53,448 nt of DNA from Mycoplasmatota bacterium (GCA_030595255.1 JAUVDP010000005.1:1-53448); one strand, 5' to 3'; numbered from the stretch's first letter, positions 34,623 through 42,253 are shown. Numbers and translations: made by a program. The notes: a model not told the origin generated them from the sequence alone.

Positions 34623-34695
34623 TTATAAAGAATTCAATGGGTCATATATGGTCTACCTATTTATTTCTGGTTATGTTAAATTGTAGTAGTATAAA

Positions 34696-34789
34696 ATAAA
34701 TATTCAAAAGGCAATAACGTGGAAATACGTTTACGCAAAGTCACAGAGCTAACGAAGAAATTCTATGCTGGCTGGTCCGCAATATTTGT
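34696..34789 (+). ncRNA. Cyclic di-GMP-I (GEMM) riboswitch aptamer
   Basis: The order of conserved GEMM-I elements is present. P1 closes with AAATATT (34698-34704) and AATATTT (34781-34787). Next come AGGCAA (34709-34714) and hairpin AACGTG-GAAA-TACGTT (34716-34731) with the GAAA tetraloop that docks in c-di-GMP-I aptamers. The invariant ACGCAAAG (34733-34740) follows, then CACAGAGCTAA, and the receptor-side strand ATGCTGGCTGGTC before the closing GC. P3 can pair AGTCA (34739-34743) with TGGCT (34769-34773, one G-U). The aptamer is followed by an intrinsic terminator 70 nt later and then the first mreB gene, so it should control transcription of the mreB-EAL operon in response to c-di-GMP. 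Confidence 0.88.
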
Positions 34790-34848
34790 TATGAAATATC
34801 AATTTATTTTGAAATTGCACTCAAAAATATCCTTTGATATCTTCTATA

Positions 34849-34860
34849 TTGTGATAAAAT
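34849..34860 (+). promoter_or_regulatory. Possible internal extended -10 promoter
   Basis: GTGATAAAAT (34851-34860) contains a TG-extended -10 (TG-A-TAAAAT) with no good -35 box. The identical 10-mer precedes the coiled-coil gene (39566-39575). Initiation from here, about 34867, would omit the aptamer and half of the terminator stem. Confidence 0.3.
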
Positions 34861-34862
34861 GC

Positions 34863-34892
34863 GCGCCTTAGATACATTTAAGGCGTTTTTTG
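34863..34892 (+). terminator. Riboswitch expression-platform terminator
   Basis: Stem CGCCTTA (34864-34870) with TAAGGCG (34879-34885), 8-nt loop, then six T (34886-34891), in the leader 36 nt before the mreB start. A terminator between an aptamer and a coding region is the usual transcriptional riboswitch layout. Confidence 0.85.
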
Positions 34893-34927
34893 TTTATTTT
34901 TATACAATAAAATATTAGGAGGAAATT

Positions 34928-35959
34928 ATGAGTGACAAGCAAAAAGGAAAATTCAATGTAGGTGTTGATCTTGGTACTTCTAATCTTCTAATTTATGTGG
35001 AAGGTCGAGGAACTGTATTCAATGAACCTTCAATTATCGCTATCGACAAAGCTACAAAAAAGGTTGTCAAAGTTGGTAAAGAAGCCGCAGAATTAGTTGG
35101 TAAAGTACATGATAAGATTGAAGTAATTAAACCTTTAAATGGTGGAGTTATTGCTGATATGGACATGATTCGTGAATTATTAATTTTTACATTTGAAAAA
35201 TTATTTGTTTCAAATTTAAGTAAAATTAATAGATTATTGATATGCATCCCTTCAGATATAACTGACACAGAAAAAACTGCAATAATGCTTCTAGGTCAAG
35301 AGTTAGGAATTGATGAGACTTATATTGATGAAGAAATTAAAGCAGCAGCAATAGGTGGTGGAATTGATATCTATACTCCTTCGGGACAACTAGTTGTAGA
35401 TATAGGGGGAGGAACTACTGACTTTGGTGTATTATCACTTGGTGATGTAGTTTTATCAAAATCAATTAAAATTGCAGGAGATTATTTTGATAAACAAATT
35501 ATCTCTTATGTAAAAGAGAATCATAAATTAGAAATTGGTTTACAAACTGCCGAAAAAATTAAAATTACTTTAGCATCATTAACTGGAGATTTTCCTGTTA
35601 ATGAAGAAGGGAATCCTTTAACTTATAGTGCAATGGGTAGAGATGTAGATTCAGGATTACCTCAACAAGTTATAATTCAAGCAGAAGAAATAAGAGAAGT
35701 TCTACTTAGTTGTTTTGATACTATTAGATCTACTTTAATTTCAACACTTGAAGCAACACCTCCAGAATTAGCTGGAGATTTAGTGGATAACGGAATATTA
35801 ATTACTGGTGGAGGAGCACAAATTCTTGGAATTAGAAAATTCTTTGAAGATATAACTGGGACAGATGTACACATTTCAAATGGGCCTTTAATCGCTGTGG
35901 TTGAAGGTACAAAGAAACTCCTGAAGATGGATCGTAAACACTTCTTCGGAGATTATTAG
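34928..35959 (+). CDS. MreB-like actin homologue, paralogue 1
   Basis: Actin-fold ATPase that polymerises into membrane-bound filaments. The 343-aa product has the phosphate-1 loop DLGTSN (14-19), NEPS (33-36), catalytic-region Glu135-Glu136, the phosphate-2 loop DIGGGTTDFG (158-167) and the adenosine motif ITGGGA (292-297). The usual EEPMAAAIG reads EEIKAAAIG, so the Pro is lost as in its two neighbours. First gene after the c-di-GMP riboswitch; AGGAGG site. The next mreB starts 9 nt after its stop. No mreC, mreD or rodA gene is near, so a role in a wall elongasome is not supported; shape or movement is more likely (inference). Confidence 0.92.
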   Translation: MSDKQKGKFNVGVDLGTSNLLIYVEGRGTVFNEPSIIAIDKATKKVVKVGKEAAELVGKVHDKIEVIKPLNGGVIADMDMIRELLIFTFEKLFVSNLSKINRLLICIPSDITDTEKTAIMLLGQELGIDETYIDEEIKAAAIGGGIDIYTPSGQLVVDIGGGTTDFGVLSLGDVVLSKSIKIAGDYFDKQIISYVKENHKLEIGLQTAEKIKITLASLTGDFPVNEEGNPLTYSAMGRDVDSGLPQQVIIQAEEIREVLLSCFDTIRSTLISTLEATPPELAGDLVDNGILITGGGAQILGIRKFFEDITGTDVHISNGPLIAVVEGTKKLLKMDRKHFFGDY

Positions 35960-35968
35960 GAGGATATT

Positions 35969-36982
35969 ATGGCAGAAAAAATTGGATTAGGAATAGACTT
36001 AGGTACTGCTAACTTACTAGTATATCTTGAAAGAAAAGGAATTATATTCAATGAACCTTCAGTTATAGCTTTTGATCGCGAAAGCGGTAAAATAGTAGCA
36101 GCTGGTGTAGATGCTCATCAAATGCTTGGAAAAGTACACAGTAAAATATCTGTAGTTAAACCACTAAAAAATGGAGTAATAAGTGATATGAAAGCTGCTA
36201 AAGCTTTAATAGCATATGTATTAAAAAAAGTAGAAAATTTAACATCAAAAGAATTATCAAAAACTTCATGTGTTATTTGTTGTCCATCAGAAGTAACAAA
36301 GATCGAAAGAGATATTATGGTGGATTTAGCATTAAATACTGGAATTAGTGATGTATTTATAGAAGAAGAAATCAAATCAGGTGCTCTTGGAGCAAATGTT
36401 GATATCTTTAAATCAAAAGGAGTTATGATTGTTGATATTGGAGGCGGAACCACTGACGTTGGTGTGCTCTCATTTGGAGACATTGTATTATCTCGTACTA
36501 TTAGAATGGCTGGGAATTATGTAGATACACAAATTGCAAAATATGTTAAAAAAGATTTTAAAGTAGAAATTGGAGAACTTACTGCTGAAAGAAGTAAAAT
36601 TGAACTTTCAGATTTAAGAAAAGATTCTTCAGAAATTATAAATAGATATGCAGGTAGAGATATTGTTAGAGGAATCCCTAAATGGGTTGACATAAGCAGT
36701 AAAGATGTTAGAGAAGTTTTACTTCCTGTATATGAAGAAGTAGTAAAATTAATAAGCGCAGTATTAAAAGATACTCCTCCTGAATTAAGTGCAGATATAT
36801 TCCAAAATGGAATATTATTAACTGGTGGAGGAGCTCTAATTAAAGGCGTTGAAGAGTTCATAAGTGATAGAATAAAAGTACCAGTAAAAGTTGTTAGTAA
36901 TCCTTTAACATGTGTTGCTGAAGGATCTAAATACTTACTTAAAAATCGTGGGGATTATTTAGTTAATCCACTGCAATTATAG
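35969..36982 (+). CDS. MreB-like actin homologue, paralogue 2
   Basis: A 337-aa actin-fold ATPase with DLGTAN (10-15), NEPSVIAFD, Glu132-134 (IEEEIKSGALG), DIGGGTTDVG (146-155) and LTGGGALIKGVEEF near the end. It is clearly a diverged copy of the genes on both sides: same length, same motif spacing, different surface residues. AGGAGG site 9 nt after paralogue 1. In Spiroplasma and Haloplasma, sets of several MreBs act together in helical shape and motility; the same division of work is plausible here. Confidence 0.92.
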   Translation: MAEKIGLGIDLGTANLLVYLERKGIIFNEPSVIAFDRESGKIVAAGVDAHQMLGKVHSKISVVKPLKNGVISDMKAAKALIAYVLKKVENLTSKELSKTSCVICCPSEVTKIERDIMVDLALNTGISDVFIEEEIKSGALGANVDIFKSKGVMIVDIGGGTTDVGVLSFGDIVLSRTIRMAGNYVDTQIAKYVKKDFKVEIGELTAERSKIELSDLRKDSSEIINRYAGRDIVRGIPKWVDISSKDVREVLLPVYEEVVKLISAVLKDTPPELSADIFQNGILLTGGGALIKGVEEFISDRIKVPVKVVSNPLTCVAEGSKYLLKNRGDYLVNPLQL

Positions 36983-36995
36983 AGGAGTGAATAAT

Positions 36996-38033
36996 ATGGA
37001 AAATAGTAAACTTTTGAAATCAAAAGAGAAACTTATAAAAATTGGAATAGATTTAGGAACTGCAAATTTATTAGTATATGTTGATGGAGAAGGAATCATC
37101 TTTAATGAACCTTCAGTGATTGCAATGGACTATGATACATCAGAAGTTATAGCAGTTGGATATAACGCAGCTAAAATGATTGGTAGAGGACACCATGGGA
37201 TTAAAATAGTAAGTCCATTAAATCAAGGTGTAATCTCTGATATGGAAGCTGCTAAAAAATTAATTGAAATAGCTATTAGAAAAGCTGAAAATTCAGATAT
37301 TAAATTAAAAGCTTCGACAGTATTAATTTGTTGTCCAAGTGAAGTTACTCAAATAGAAAGAGATGCTATGATTGATTTAGCTCATAAACTTGGTGTACCT
37401 GATGTCTTCATAGAAGAAGAAGTTAAGGCAGGTGGAATCGGTGCAGGACTAGATATTTATAGTTCAAACGGATCTATGGTTATTGATATTGGTGGAGGTT
37501 CTACTGATATTGGTGTTTTATCACTTGGTGATATCGTAGTAAGTGAATCTATAAGAGTTGCCGGAAATCATTTTGATCAAGAAATAATTAATTACTTACA
37601 ATATGAACATGGTTTATTAATCGGTAAAAAAACAGCACAAAGAATCAAGGAAGAAATTGGGACGTTGCGAGAAGAGCTTACAGAAAATAAAACAACACTT
37701 GCAAAAGGTAGAGACATTGTTTCTGGTTTACCTAGAAAAATCGAAGTTAGTCAAGAAGAAGTAAGAGCAGTTCTAATTGAACCTTTTAATAACATTTCAA
37801 CAGCAATCCTTAAGGTGTTACAAAATACACCTGCTGAATTATCTGCAGACATAATTGTTAATGGTATGTTAATAAACGGAGGTTGTGCATTAATTGAGGG
37901 CGTAGACGAGTTTCTTGAAAAGAAAATCGGATTAGACGTTCATATTGCTAAAAATCCTCTAACAGCAATTGTTGAAGGAACAAAAGTGTTACTTCAAAAT
38001 CGCGGAAACTATTATGTAAAGCCTGTAGACTAA
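36996..38033 (+). CDS. MreB-like actin homologue, paralogue 3
   Basis: A 345-aa actin-fold ATPase. It has a longer Lys-rich N-terminal extension (residues 1-14), DLGTAN (19-24), Glu140-142 (IEEEVKAGGIG), DIGGGSTDIG (154-163, Thr to Ser change) and INGGCALIEG where the others have TGGGA. The altered adenosine motif may change nucleotide handling. ATG 36996 follows GAGGAGTGA; a GTG 9 nt upstream lies in that site. The GGDEF/EAL gene starts 1 nt after its stop, so all four are one translational unit. Confidence 0.91.
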   Translation: MENSKLLKSKEKLIKIGIDLGTANLLVYVDGEGIIFNEPSVIAMDYDTSEVIAVGYNAAKMIGRGHHGIKIVSPLNQGVISDMEAAKKLIEIAIRKAENSDIKLKASTVLICCPSEVTQIERDAMIDLAHKLGVPDVFIEEEVKAGGIGAGLDIYSSNGSMVIDIGGGSTDIGVLSLGDIVVSESIRVAGNHFDQEIINYLQYEHGLLIGKKTAQRIKEEIGTLREELTENKTTLAKGRDIVSGLPRKIEVSQEEVRAVLIEPFNNISTAILKVLQNTPAELSADIIVNGMLINGGCALIEGVDEFLEKKIGLDVHIAKNPLTAIVEGTKVLLQNRGNYYVKPVD

Positions 38034-38034
38034 A

Positions 38035-39489
38035 ATGTATATGAAGAAGAGAAACATCCTTTTAGGAATATTGTTGTTTCTTCTATTGTCACTAATTTTC
38101 AAAACATTTCAAGAAAATGAAATAATTACAATAGTGATAAGCGTTCTGAGTACAGTGGTTTTACTACTGTACTTAAGAACAACTTCAGAAGTAAAATTTG
38201 TAATTGAAAAGAACAGAATTACAAATAGGTCAAGTAGAAATAATCTAAAGAATAGCTTCGTAGTCTTTTTAGAAATATCAAATCTCGCTACATATAGCCA
38301 ATTCTATGATATTAATCTGAGCGATAAATTATTTGATCAAATTTATCAAGAAGCTATTAAGCAAGTAGGGAAAAGTTGCGTATTTTTATACAGAACAGAT
38401 CAATTAGTGTTTATCTTAGATTTTCAAAATCAAACTGTAATTAATCAGGTGTTGCGCTATGAAGAACAATATAGAAGTGCAAAACAGATTATAAATCACT
38501 TATCTAAAATGACATTTAAGATAGACAAAAAAGAATCAAACTACGATGTTAAACTTGTTTCAGGTTGTGCATCTGTAGGTATAAGAGAAGAAATTCATTC
38601 TATTGAAGAATTAATAAAATTAGCTCACTTCTCAATGTTAAGAGCGAAGGAATTTAAAAAAGAAATAGTTGTAGCTAATGATGAAACACATATAATCAAA
38701 CAAGACTTAGATAGCTTCAATAAGGAGATTGAAGAAGGATTTGAACTTGATGAATTTTCACCATTTTTCTTTCCGATTATTAATACTAAAACAAGTAAAA
38801 TAGTTGGTTGTGAAAGTTTAGTAAGATGGAGAAAAAATAAATATAGAATTATAGAAGCATCCAAATTTAAAGATATTGCTGACGAGAAGAATTTGTTTGA
38901 AAAGATCGATAAGAGGGTTATAGAAAAAACTCTAAGCAATTATTCAGTATGGAGAGAATTAGGTTTAATTGATAAGGAATTCAGTATTACTATTAATCTT
39001 AGTTTAAAGAGTTTAATGCTTTTTAAAACTTATGAGTTAATAAATTTAGTGAAATCATATGATGTTGATCCTAAAAATGTTGAGTTTGATATTTCAGAAA
39101 ATGATGTATCATCACAACCTGCTATCCAAGCAATCCATAATTTAAAAAAAGCTCACTTTAAAGTAGCTTTAGACGCATTTAGATCTAAAACATTTTCTTT
39201 ATCATCGATAATGGCAATTGATGTAAACACTATAAAAATAGATAAATCAAGAATGCCAACTTCAGTTGATGAAGATAAAACATTTTTACTATATAAAACT
39301 ATTACTAAGTTTTCTAGAGTAATGAATCTAATTGTTATGTCAAAAGGAATCGAAAATTATAATCAATTTAAGCTTGCACAAAAGCTTAATGTAGACCTTG
39401 TACAAGGATATTATTTCACGCCACCTCTAGATGAAGTAAACATCCAAGTATTTTTAAAAAAATACCAGGATGGTATCCTTACACCCTAA
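38035..39489 (+). CDS. Membrane-anchored degenerate GGDEF-EAL protein, probable c-di-GMP receptor
   Basis: A 484-aa protein. Two membrane helices (about 7-24 and 29-47), then a GGDEF-like domain (about 70-215) and an EAL domain (about 225-475). The GGDEF site is destroyed (TDQLV at 121-125). The EAL domain keeps Glu260 (ESL), Asn321, Glu355, Asp380, Lys401 and Gln457. It has Ala381 in place of the second metal Asp of DDFG, and Lys437 where AEGVE has Glu. Loss of metal ligands with retained ligand-pocket residues suggests binding without hydrolysis, as in FimX or LapD. It is the fourth gene of the riboswitch-controlled mreB operon, with ATG 1 nt after mreB3, and ends in a strong terminator. 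ATG at 38041 is an alternative start. Confidence 0.87.
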   Translation: MYMKKRNILLGILLFLLLSLIFKTFQENEIITIVISVLSTVVLLLYLRTTSEVKFVIEKNRITNRSSRNNLKNSFVVFLEISNLATYSQFYDINLSDKLFDQIYQEAIKQVGKSCVFLYRTDQLVFILDFQNQTVINQVLRYEEQYRSAKQIINHLSKMTFKIDKKESNYDVKLVSGCASVGIREEIHSIEELIKLAHFSMLRAKEFKKEIVVANDETHIIKQDLDSFNKEIEEGFELDEFSPFFFPIINTKTSKIVGCESLVRWRKNKYRIIEASKFKDIADEKNLFEKIDKRVIEKTLSNYSVWRELGLIDKEFSITINLSLKSLMLFKTYELINLVKSYDVDPKNVEFDISENDVSSQPAIQAIHNLKKAHFKVALDAFRSKTFSLSSIMAIDVNTIKIDKSRMPTSVDEDKTFLLYKTITKFSRVMNLIVMSKGIENYNQFKLAQKLNVDLVQGYYFTPPLDEVNIQVFLKKYQDGILTP

Positions 39490-39490
39490 C

Positions 39491-39527
39491 CGAAGAGGAA
39501 AATCCCCGTTTTCCTCTTCTTTTTATT
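39491..39527 (+). terminator. Intrinsic terminator of the mreB-EAL operon
   Basis: Perfect 11-pair stem GAAGAGGAAAA (39492-39502) with TTTTCCTCTTC (39509-39519), 6-nt loop, TTTTTATTT. Confidence 0.93.
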
Positions 39528-39563: not shown

Positions 39564-39575
39564 TAGTGATAAAAT
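39564..39575 (+). promoter_or_regulatory. Possible promoter of the coiled-coil gene
   Basis: GTGATAAAAT (39566-39575), a TG-extended -10 (TG-A-TAAAAT) 30 nt before ATG 39605. Same 10-mer as in the mreB leader. No convincing -35 box. Confidence 0.4.
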
Positions 39576-39604
39576 ATTCTTATCAGGGAAAAGGAGGATC
39601 AATT

Positions 39605-42253
39605 ATGGCAGAAAAAAGCGGATTAATTGAGAAATCGTTAAATATTAATTATTTAAAAGTACAAAAAGCAGAAATAGGAGTTACTGAAAAAACTAGTGAT
39701 CTTAAAAAAGGATTTCTAAAAAATACAGCAAATCACTTAAAGGATTTTAAGGCTGAACAAAAAGCAGTCGAAGCTCAAAAGAAAGCTGTAAAAGCTAAGT
39801 TTAAGGCTAGCTTAGATAGTGTTAACATTAATCATAAAAAACACTTTGGTGATTTATTAGAAAAAACTAAAGAAGTTGAAGAAAACTATGTAAGCGACCT
39901 TGAGAAAGTTACAGTTTCAAAAGAAACAGATGAAGCTAAACTTAATAAAGCAATTAAAGAAATCGAAAAAGATCATCTTAAAGAAGTTGAAAGTTTATTA
40001 AAAGGATATGAAAGTAATATCGCTAAAAGCAATAAAGAAAAAGAACAAATTGATGCTAAAGCATTATCTGATGTTGAAAACTTAAATAAAAAACTACAAG
40101 ATGCAAAAGAAAAGCACTTAGAAAAAGTGTCTTCTTTTAATGAAAAAATATCAGAGAAAATAGACAAATTAAAAGAGTCAAGTGATAAAAAAATTGCAAA
40201 AGAAAATGCAGATATACTTAAAGAAGAAGAAAAAAATGCTAAATCAATTGAAGATTTAAAACCTGGATTCGATAAAAAATTAGCTGAAGTTGAAAAAAAA
40301 GTTGCATTAGAAAAACAACAATTTGATACTAAATATGTTGCAATTAAATCAACATTAGATTCTAAAGTAGCTAGACATGAAAAATTTATGAATAAGAACA
40401 TAAAAGATAATGACCAAAGAGCAGCTAAACAACATAAAAAAGAAATAGCAATTTTACAAAAAAATGCTGATAAAGAACTAAAAATATTAACTAATGAACA
40501 TAATGAGAAGTTTAAAGGAGTAAATTCTAAAAGAAAATTATTGATTCAAGAGAATCTAGAATCAATAGCTACTTTAGCTAAAAAGTTAATTACTGCTAGA
40601 GAAGAAAAACTATATCAAATTGAATCACATAAAGTTATCTTAAGTAAAGATGTTGATAGTATTAAACTAGAAACTGATTTAAAAGTTCAAGAAGCAATTA
40701 ATAAATTAAATGAAGTTGAAAGAGATAACTTAATAAAATCATCAGGTATTGTTTTAAAACAAAAACTAGATATTGAACAAGAAGATGATTCTCAAGTTAA
40801 ATTAAAAGTTGTATTTGATAAACAAAATGAAATTAATAAAATCAAAAGTGAACAAGAGTTAGCTATTAAGAATAAAGAACTTAAGCTTATTGATTCTAAA
40901 TTAGAATTAAAAATTAAGTTAATGGAATTGAAAAAAGCAATTGAGTTATCTAAAATAGAAAATGAAACAAAAGTTTCTGAAAAAGAATTAGTATTAGATA
41001 CTAAAGTAAATGAAGAAAATGAAATTATTGAATATCATAATATTGATTTTGTTTGTCAAAGCCAATTATCATCAGAAAACCTTTCATTCCAAACAGAGAT
41101 TAAATCACTGTTTGAAGGTAGAGAAGAAGTTATCTTAGCTTATGAAGAACTTGAATTAGCTAATAGATCTTCATTAAAAGTAAAATTCTTAGAAGCTCAA
41201 AAAGCAAGAATTGAAGCTGATAAAGAAGTAGTTATTGCTAAGATTAATGGTGCATTTGAGACTGAACAAATCTTATATGATGAAGAAAGAGAAAAAGCTT
41301 CATCTAAAGACTTAGAAGAACTTAAAATTTATGAAAAAGAAGCAAATGATGCAATTAAAAAAATAACTGATAAAAGAAATGCCTTAGATCCTAAAGCTTA
41401 TAAAAAAGAAATTAAGGATTTAGATAATGATATTAATGATAGTCGTAATGAATTAAATACTTATGTTCATACAAAAAGAGAAAACATTACTTCTAATACA
41501 GTATTATTTGATAAAGGTATCGCTGAAGTTAAGGCAAGAAGAGAAACTTCTATTGATGAAACAAAAGAATTCTTTAGCCAAGAACTATTAAGAATTAATG
41601 AAGCAATTGAACTTGTTATCAGTAATAAAGATAAAGAATTAAAAGAAGCTAAAAATAGACATCTTAAAACATTTGAAAATACTGCATTATTACTTCAAAA
41701 TGCTCAACTTAGAAATAATTTATTAGTTGAAGAAACTACAGCATTTAAAATGAGTAGAATTCAGAATGAAAATAATGTTATTAAAGACTTTAAAGATATA
41801 TTTGAAAAACAAAAATTTGGATTTAAAGAAGTTTACGATGAGAATCTATCAGAATTGGAAGCTAAAATTAGAAGTGAAGAATCTATAAGTAAAGATGGTT
41901 TATCTAATGCTGAAGCAAGTTATGAAGCCAAAGTTGCTGAATTTACTAGACACCTTCAAGATGCTGAAAATGCTGAAGCTAGTAAGTTAGAAAAACAATC
42001 TTCAATTCACAAACAAAACTATTCTACTATAGAACTTAATGCAAGTAACAAAGTTAGTAATATTAAAGTAGACTTCGTTACCAAAGAGAATACTTATAAA
42101 GCAAACGTTACTGAAATTGATAAAAATATAAGTAATCAATCTAAGAACTTTGAAGCTACTAAAAAAGCTGTTAAAAAAGATTATGAACTTACTTTAGCTA
42201 AAAATAATAGTGAAGTTAATTTAAAACTGCAACAAGATATTAAAGCATTATAA
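39605..42253 (+). CDS. Giant coiled-coil protein, probable cytoskeletal element
   Basis: An 882-aa protein made almost wholly of Lys/Glu/Ala/Leu heptad-type sequence from about residue 20 to the end. There is no membrane helix, no signal peptide and no P-loop, so it is not an SMC-type ATPase. One cysteine is visible in the middle (DFVCQSQ). Long charged helices of this kind form rods or scaffolds. It lies right after the mreB-EAL operon, separated by a terminator, and carries its own promoter-like element, so it is co-located but separately expressed. ATG 39605 has an AAAGGAGGATC site; the longer frame from 39566 starts in the promoter. No named family recognised. Confidence 0.8.
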   Translation: MAEKSGLIEKSLNINYLKVQKAEIGVTEKTSDLKKGFLKNTANHLKDFKAEQKAVEAQKKAVKAKFKASLDSVNINHKKHFGDLLEKTKEVEENYVSDLEKVTVSKETDEAKLNKAIKEIEKDHLKEVESLLKGYESNIAKSNKEKEQIDAKALSDVENLNKKLQDAKEKHLEKVSSFNEKISEKIDKLKESSDKKIAKENADILKEEEKNAKSIEDLKPGFDKKLAEVEKKVALEKQQFDTKYVAIKSTLDSKVARHEKFMNKNIKDNDQRAAKQHKKEIAILQKNADKELKILTNEHNEKFKGVNSKRKLLIQENLESIATLAKKLITAREEKLYQIESHKVILSKDVDSIKLETDLKVQEAINKLNEVERDNLIKSSGIVLKQKLDIEQEDDSQVKLKVVFDKQNEINKIKSEQELAIKNKELKLIDSKLELKIKLMELKKAIELSKIENETKVSEKELVLDTKVNEENEIIEYHNIDFVCQSQLSSENLSFQTEIKSLFEGREEVILAYEELELANRSSLKVKFLEAQKARIEADKEVVIAKINGAFETEQILYDEEREKASSKDLEELKIYEKEANDAIKKITDKRNALDPKAYKKEIKDLDNDINDSRNELNTYVHTKRENITSNTVLFDKGIAEVKARRETSIDETKEFFSQELLRINEAIELVISNKDKELKEAKNRHLKTFENTALLLQNAQLRNNLLVEETTAFKMSRIQNENNVIKDFKDIFEKQKFGFKEVYDENLSELEAKIRSEESISKDGLSNAEASYEAKVAEFTRHLQDAENAEASKLEKQSSIHKQNYSTIELNASNKVSNIKVDFVTKENTYKANVTEIDKNISNQSKNFEATKKAVKKDYELTLAKNNSEVNLKLQQDIKAL

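Follow-up and report, generated by a model that had tools for sequence, protein, structure and literature searches.

Why does an aptamer for the second messenger c-di-GMP stand ahead of three actin genes in a wall-less deep-sea relative of the mycoplasmas, and what would it do to their expression? c-di-GMP riboswitches are known for motility and adhesion genes, and an actin-cytoskeleton target was not found in the literature that we searched. The window analyzed here, meaning the whole stretch of 53,448 nucleotides, is part of a 1.6-Mb draft genome (G000:C6) with a completeness of 90%, its relatives reaching up to 99%. The nearest named relative is Candidatus Izimaplasma bacterium HR2 (JRFF01000040.1), with an MreB1 identity of 99%, and from this match we infer that the source genome belongs to the order Izemoplasmatales, for which complete loss of peptidoglycan has been inferred (PMC10868615). 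The likely answer, in our reading, is that the aptamer turns off transcription of the cell's sole actin operon when the messenger is abundant, although ligand binding, the direction of switching, and the roles of the proteins are inferred.

The aptamer and its operon

A search with the Rfam covariance model for c-di-GMP-I (RF01051) matched positions 34700 to 34784 of the plus strand at 57.1 bits (E 1.3e-8; gathering cut-off, 35 bits), covering model positions 1 to 87, the full length. It was the sole Rfam match above the gathering score within the 53-kb window. By the covariance model this is a genuine c-di-GMP-I (GEMM-I) aptamer; that it binds the ligand is inferred. The sites expected to be modulated by c-di-GMP are GGCAA and ACGCAAAG, an expectation for which there are no binding data. 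Behind the aptamer and a terminator lie the tightly packed genes mreB1, mreB2, mreB3, and an EAL gene, arranged with the leader elements as follows.

34672-34682, plus strand: predicted extended-TG -10 region, TATGTTAAATT (sequence, leader comparison)
34689-34712, plus strand: segment A, GTATAAAATAAATATTCAAAAGGC, first 24 nt at the predicted transcript 5' end; alternative pairing with B, T, or D
34700-34784, plus strand: c-di-GMP-I aptamer
34777-34790, plus strand: segment B, CCGCAATATTTGTT, 3' strand of P1 (leader folding)
34846-34853, plus strand: segment C, ATATTGTG, pairs with B when P1 is open (leader comparison)
34863-34891, plus strand: intrinsic terminator, GCGCCTTAGATACATTTAAGGCG plus T6 (stem 34863-34886, 10 pairs, T tail)
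34893-34905, plus strand: segment D, TTTATTTTTATAC (also given as TTTATTTTATAC), immediately 3' of the U-tract; complementary to the 5' end of the transcript
34917-34922, plus strand: ribosome-binding site of mreB1, AGGAGG (sequence)
34928-35959, plus strand: mreB1 (PF06723, E 5.6e-108; paralog clade support 100/100)
35969-36982, plus strand: mreB2 (PF06723, E 3.9e-112; paralog clade support 100/100)
36996-38033, plus strand: mreB3 (PF06723, E 3.2e-117; paralog clade support 100/99)
38035-39489, plus strand: EAL gene, a membrane protein with a degenerate GGDEF-like fold and a catalytically degenerate EAL domain (Pfam EAL, AF2, alignment)
39492-39524, plus strand: operon-closing terminator (terminator scan)

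Each of the three MreB proteins passes the Pfam MreB_Mbl model over its full length (361 to 391 bits against a cut-off of 27; E-values from 6e-108 to 3e-117), and the EAL domain passes at 1e-42. The mreB3 start was placed at the ATG at 36996, an alternative upstream GTG at 36987 being possible. The terminator scan gave 4 terminator-like sites in 5 kb, where 1.2 +/- 1.0 would be expected. An earlier note on this sequence had claimed a GEMM-I aptamer, then a terminator, three mreB genes, and a "GGDEF/EAL gene" with intergenic gaps of 9, 13, and 1 nt (mreB1/mreB2, mreB2/mreB3, and mreB3/EAL gene). The aptamer, the terminator, and the three mreB genes all held, the gaps held exactly, and the description of the fourth gene held in part, EAL passing in Pfam and GGDEF being seen only as a degenerate fold in an AF2 model.

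Transcription is predicted to start at about 34689 on two grounds: orthologous leaders have a -10-like hexamer at a similar spacing from the aptamer, and two of the genomes (G060 and G061) carry TTGACA-17-TAGAAT/TAGACT at the promoter position. A scan with a consensus promoter did not list the predicted -10 region, and the sites that it did list were no more numerous than in shuffled sequence; the promoter call therefore rests on leader comparison only. An internal promoter at segment C (TGATAAAAT) was rejected, since other leaders do not conserve the sequence.

Directly past the operon, behind its terminator, 39566-42253 encodes an 895-aa coiled-coil-like protein for which no Pfam or NCBIfam match was found. 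Proteins of 880 to 884 aa, 25 to 37% identical, occupy the equivalent site in G050, G051, G082, G046, G080, and G079, and an equivalent is missing at that site in G060, G061, and Sphaerochaeta. It is possible that this protein is a cytoskeletal partner.

Conservation of the aptamer-mreB1 neighborhood

c-di-GMP-I aptamers occur in 71 of the 90 genomes of the order, usually 1 to 7 in each; the source genome has six, together with 10 GGDEF domains. Orthologs of MreB1 (at least 69% identity) were found in 14 genomes of the order. In all 13 family genomes that have mreB1 and for which upstream DNA was available, the aptamer lies 129 to 154 nt before mreB1 on the same strand. Among 344 genomes sampled from the phylum, one from another order of Bacilli (G403) had a further ortholog; there the whole operon is preceded at a like distance by an aptamer that scores even higher (77.1 bits). 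The synteny of GEMM and mreB that the earlier note had proposed to look for is thus present in 13/13 family genomes plus G403, and the neighborhood is not due to chance. The G403 MreB1 falls inside the Izemoplasma branch with good support, and this genome therefore probably received the operon with its riboswitch; such joint acquisition is likely, if inferred.

Gene order within the module is not fixed. In the sister family, the EAL gene comes first in G011 and G013: two aptamers precede it in G013, and in G011 the aptamer lies near the end of a separate contig, so that its join to the EAL gene is inferred. In G049, mreB1 to mreB3 are missing, and a 15-codon open frame and a complete leader stand directly before the EAL gene (L086:562-2016); the rest of this genome, which is 75% complete, yielded no MreB1-like gene. 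The persistence of the aptamer in these three genomes indicates that neither rearrangement nor gene loss has parted the switch from the module.

These arrangements bear on a rival explanation, in which the riboswitch mainly serves the EAL gene as c-di-GMP feedback and the mreB genes merely ride along in the operon. The G049 leader, directly ahead of an EAL gene without actins, and the EAL-first modules of G013, with its two aptamers, and G011 speak for it. Against it, the mreB genes come first and nearest the switch in 14 genomes, the aptamer occupies this place in every mreB1-bearing genome of the family, and the Sphaerochaeta module has its actins first without any riboswitch. We regard this rival as very unlikely and keep the actin operon as the target.

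In the Sphaerochaeta order, MreB1 was found in 16 of 139 genomes, and the four loci examined (L088-L091) share an identical order, mreB1-2-3-EAL. No c-di-GMP-I aptamer above the cut-off was detected at these four loci or anywhere in those four genomes; the riboswitch therefore belongs to the module's Bacilli branch.

Alternative pairings in the leader

The expression platform was examined in silico in 15 leaders, 14 from the family and that of G403, which is from another order and the most diverged. In this set the terminator at 34863-34891 competes through A:B, A:T, and B:C pairings, the support for A:T being moderate. Segment T comprises the 5' arm and loop of the terminator; segment A is complementary to the 5' arm, and often to the loop as well, in 15/15 leaders, and a canonical terminator is present in every leader examined. 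Segment C, ATATTG[T/C]G, is invariant in 14 leaders.

Folding of partial and full transcripts gave a consistent order of events in the 14 leaders. While only the 5' arm and loop of the terminator are transcribed, A:T forms with 5 to 14 expected pairs in 14/14, mostly accompanied by B:C, and the terminator takes over once its 3' arm has been transcribed. A:D appears in the minimum free energy structure of 14/14 full leaders, with the terminator hairpin staying intact inside it. At full length and equilibrium the terminator outcompetes A:T in the 14 family leaders, so antitermination there must be kinetic. In the G403 leader the A:T antiterminator (12 bp, -15.5 kcal/mol, matched by 0 of 1000 shuffles) outcompetes the terminator even at equilibrium at full length. 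P1 in the window leader costs just 1.7 kcal/mol over the free fold, and ligand would therefore be able to tip the balance.

When partner segments were shuffled, B:C exceeded the shuffle mean in 13/14 leaders and A:D in 14/14; A:T was clearly above shuffles in 10/14, the exceptions being G047, G045, G080, and G049. In the A:D alignment, 165 of 167 cells pair, with two two-sided changes, and A:D formed 11.8 pairs with its own partner and 11.6 with a foreign one. Since most of the paired positions are invariant, covariation is thin; for this reason, and because foreign partners pair almost equally well, it was rejected as decisive proof of A:D. C:D pairing, good by eye only in some leaders, was dropped from the main model as a general element.

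A second leader with the A-B-C-T-D layout lies elsewhere in the source genome, ahead of a small membrane protein gene (L085:3240-4240, G000:C4), with three tandem paralogs of about 55 aa downstream, each followed by a terminator-like sequence. The repetition of the layout at this site supports a real leader type.

A proposed OFF switch

Aptamer identity, the operon, its conservation, the complementarities, the loss of catalytic residues, and the absence of other MreBs are shown at the sequence level, and the mechanism built on them is a likely one whose response to ligand is inferred. At high c-di-GMP, the ligand would bind the aptamer and segment A would be held in P1 with B; the terminator would form, and MreB1 to MreB3 and the EAL protein would not be made. 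At low c-di-GMP, B would pair with C, leaving A free to catch the 5' arm and loop of the terminator as they emerge, and RNA polymerase would read through. After read-through, A would pair with D past the U-tract, closing the 5' end of the mRNA and excluding P1. The products would be three distinct MreB actins, forming a wall-independent cytoskeleton for shape and probably motility, and an EAL protein, anchored in the membrane and probably dead as an enzyme, which probably senses c-di-GMP at the protein level.

The earlier note had suggested that AAAGGC (34707-34712) could pair with GCCTT of the terminator 5' arm, making c-di-GMP an OFF signal. Both sequences are present, and comparison of the 15 leaders, including that of G403, supports the OFF logic in silico. 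What that note had missed were D, a complement of the same 5' end lying past the U-tract, and the B:C hairpin that competes with P1. Its broader claim, control of the actins by a second messenger at the RNA level, is likewise supported, while binding and response to c-di-GMP and the roles of the actins remain inference.

The main rival for the RNA is an ON or translational switch, in which c-di-GMP binding would free D and the terminator would set only a basal level, the decisive step being C:D pairing beside the Shine-Dalgarno sequence, or the state of the 5' end, instead of termination. In its favor, D lies 3' of the terminator, so that A:D, the most consistent pairing among these leaders, requires read-through RNA to form, and the terminator hairpin is intact within A:D in the full-leader fold. 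Against it, C:D complementarity, judged by eye, is good only in some leaders, every leader keeps its canonical terminator, and all leaders have a segment A complementary to the terminator arm, most strongly so in the diverged G403. An ON or translational switch is thus unlikely, and the transcriptional OFF switch remains our preferred reading.

Three MreB actins without a wall

MreB1 to MreB3 are the only MreBs found in the source genome, as also in G079, G011, and G403, and two Sphaerochaeta genomes (G092 and G569) have only three each. Across Izemoplasmatales, G403, and Sphaerochaeta, MreB1, MreB2, and MreB3 each form their own clade with 100% bootstrap support; an old set of three paralogs has therefore been kept as a unit. 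The f5 genomes, probably Spiroplasma or Spiroplasma-like (5 to 6 MreBs, TGA read as W), have MreBs that fall outside these clades, with support of 99/95 or better, and orthology to those proteins was rejected by the tree.

MreC (PF04085) was not found in the 7 genomes searched, nor RodA/FtsW (PF01098) in the 5 Izemoplasma genomes searched, positive controls being detected in both searches; completeness is 90% for the source genome and up to 99% for the relatives. The criterion for a canonical elongasome (mreBCD), MreC plus RodA/FtsW in the genome, is thus not met, and in the absence of these proteins a role for the three MreBs in wall synthesis is unlikely. The closest solved structure for each MreB is 7bvy, with 7e1c also among the nearest; we take these to be Spiroplasma citri MreB5 and Spiroplasma MreB3, respectively. 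Pairs of Spiroplasma MreBs (MreB4-MreB5, MreB1-MreB5) suffice to confer helical form and swimming on a synthetic cell without a wall (PMC9710875). Given these nearest structures and the sufficiency of MreB pairs for swimming, a role in shape or movement is likely, though unproved, the function being inferred.

An alternative view, concerning the proteins and not the switch, is that these are ordinary shape or division proteins and that the link to c-di-GMP is a generic control of growth mode rather than of motility. It is supported by the Izemoplasma isolate zrk13, described as coccoid and without a flagellum, with no mention of motility (PMC8397711), and by the fact that MreB is a scaffold for wall synthesis in most bacteria. 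Against it stand the failure to find RodA/FtsW and MreC in the Izemoplasma genomes searched, the nearness of each MreB to 7bvy together with the swimming conferred by Spiroplasma pairs, and the joint retention of three ancient paralogs. The evidence tips slightly away from this alternative without excluding it, and we continue to favor a role in shape or movement.

The EAL protein

An AF2 model of the fourth protein (13 sequences, mean pLDDT 82) has two N-terminal helices, predicted to be transmembrane, then a domain with a GGDEF-like fold, and finally an EAL barrel. In Pfam, no GGDEF match passes for this protein. Its Foldseek matches are the GGDEF-EAL proteins PA0575 and MorA, with LapD lower. 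In 16/16 aligned homologs, including those of Sphaerochaeta, ELTE has Asp in place of its Glu, DDFG lacks its second Asp, and EGVE has Lys in place of its Glu, while the EAL Glu and the xRW, Asn, Lys, and Gln positions are retained. The complete set of residues required of an EAL phosphodiesterase (E, N, E, DD, K, and the E of EGVE) is thus not met. Judged from sequence alone, the protein is probably a dead enzyme that has kept its fold. That it still binds c-di-GMP as a receptor is inferred without binding data; with its catalytic residues replaced, the protein is better described as c-di-GMP receptor-like, as in the earlier note, than as an active enzyme, and the accompanying idea that the fourth gene adds feedback or a protein-level input remains inference. 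Because G049 keeps the gene without the actins, the EAL protein may have a role of its own.

Other c-di-GMP-I aptamers of the order

Many other aptamers in the order precede genes for short secreted proteins with a YAYW/YAWF motif (L083:5492-6582, L013, L015, L035, L020, and L024), often as tandem aptamers (two in G000:C60 and three in G027:C10). These proteins have no Pfam match and bear only a resemblance to matrix-fiber proteins. At L013, L015, and L035 the 5' arm of the terminator starts within the 3' end of the aptamer, an arrangement that, on the sequence evidence only, would be in keeping with an ON switch. In that case, c-di-GMP would increase the surface proteins and decrease the actins, which we offer as a lead and not as a result.

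Elsewhere, an aptamer lies directly ahead of a GGDEF gene (L016:1501-2556, G046:C13), possibly as feedback on c-di-GMP synthesis. Another in the source genome precedes a gene whose product is predicted to be a lipoprotein carrying a trypsin-like protease domain (PF13365; L084:4938-5651, G000:C2), followed by a gene for a 1225-aa lipoprotein-like protein.

Comparison with known systems

The leader resembles known c-di-GMP-I (GEMM-I, RF01051) riboswitches in its full-length aptamer, conserved core, and terminator-type expression platform, and differs from them in its target, a three-actin operon, and in the extra partner D that the 5' end has beyond the terminator. The MreB1-5 swimming cytoskeleton of Spiroplasma (PMC8432965, PMC9710875) likewise has several MreBs in a wall-less member of the same class, but the Izemoplasma proteins are not orthologous to it and form three outside clades; to our knowledge, no riboswitch or EAL partner has been described for the Spiroplasma MreBs. 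The EAL protein shares with LapD/FimX receptors a two-domain GGDEF-EAL fold, a membrane anchor, and degenerate catalytic residues, but it matches the LapD model at only 53.6 bits against a cut-off of 1020, and no periplasmic output domain is seen in its model.

In Escherichia coli K-12, csrD lies by mreBCD (L138, 3400044-3403332), so that there, too, mreB stands beside a degenerate GGDEF-EAL gene. CsrD is degenerate and acts in RNA decay, with no riboswitch known to be involved, and the adjacency may be a coincidence. The Sphaerochaeta module matches the operon gene for gene and in gene order, with MreBs 65 to 78% identical, but no c-di-GMP-I aptamer above the cut-off lies near it or elsewhere in the four Sphaerochaeta genomes searched.

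A search of open-access full text found no link between a c-di-GMP riboswitch and mreB or actin, subscription papers being mostly not covered; within that scope, the claim that no such system had been described held. The aptamer class is a known one; what is new is the kind of target, an actin operon, and the added partner for the 5' end.

Implications

The leader described here is, by prediction, a clear three-way RNA switch for which nature has supplied 15 variants. The riboswitch would control all the MreB actins of the cell in a wall-less lineage, where a role as a wall scaffold is impossible, and would tie the messenger of the motile and sessile states to the supply of cytoskeleton, providing a testable entry to the wall-free function of MreB. 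That Sphaerochaeta, from a different phylum, has the four-gene module as well points to an actin system that is portable. A bolder reading, which we consider possible, is that three MreBs and a membrane c-di-GMP receptor constitute a self-contained module for shape or motility that belongs to wall-poor bacteria and moves horizontally, and that the messenger may control twice, at the RNA level through a riboswitch with three partners and at the protein level through a dead EAL protein acting on the filaments.
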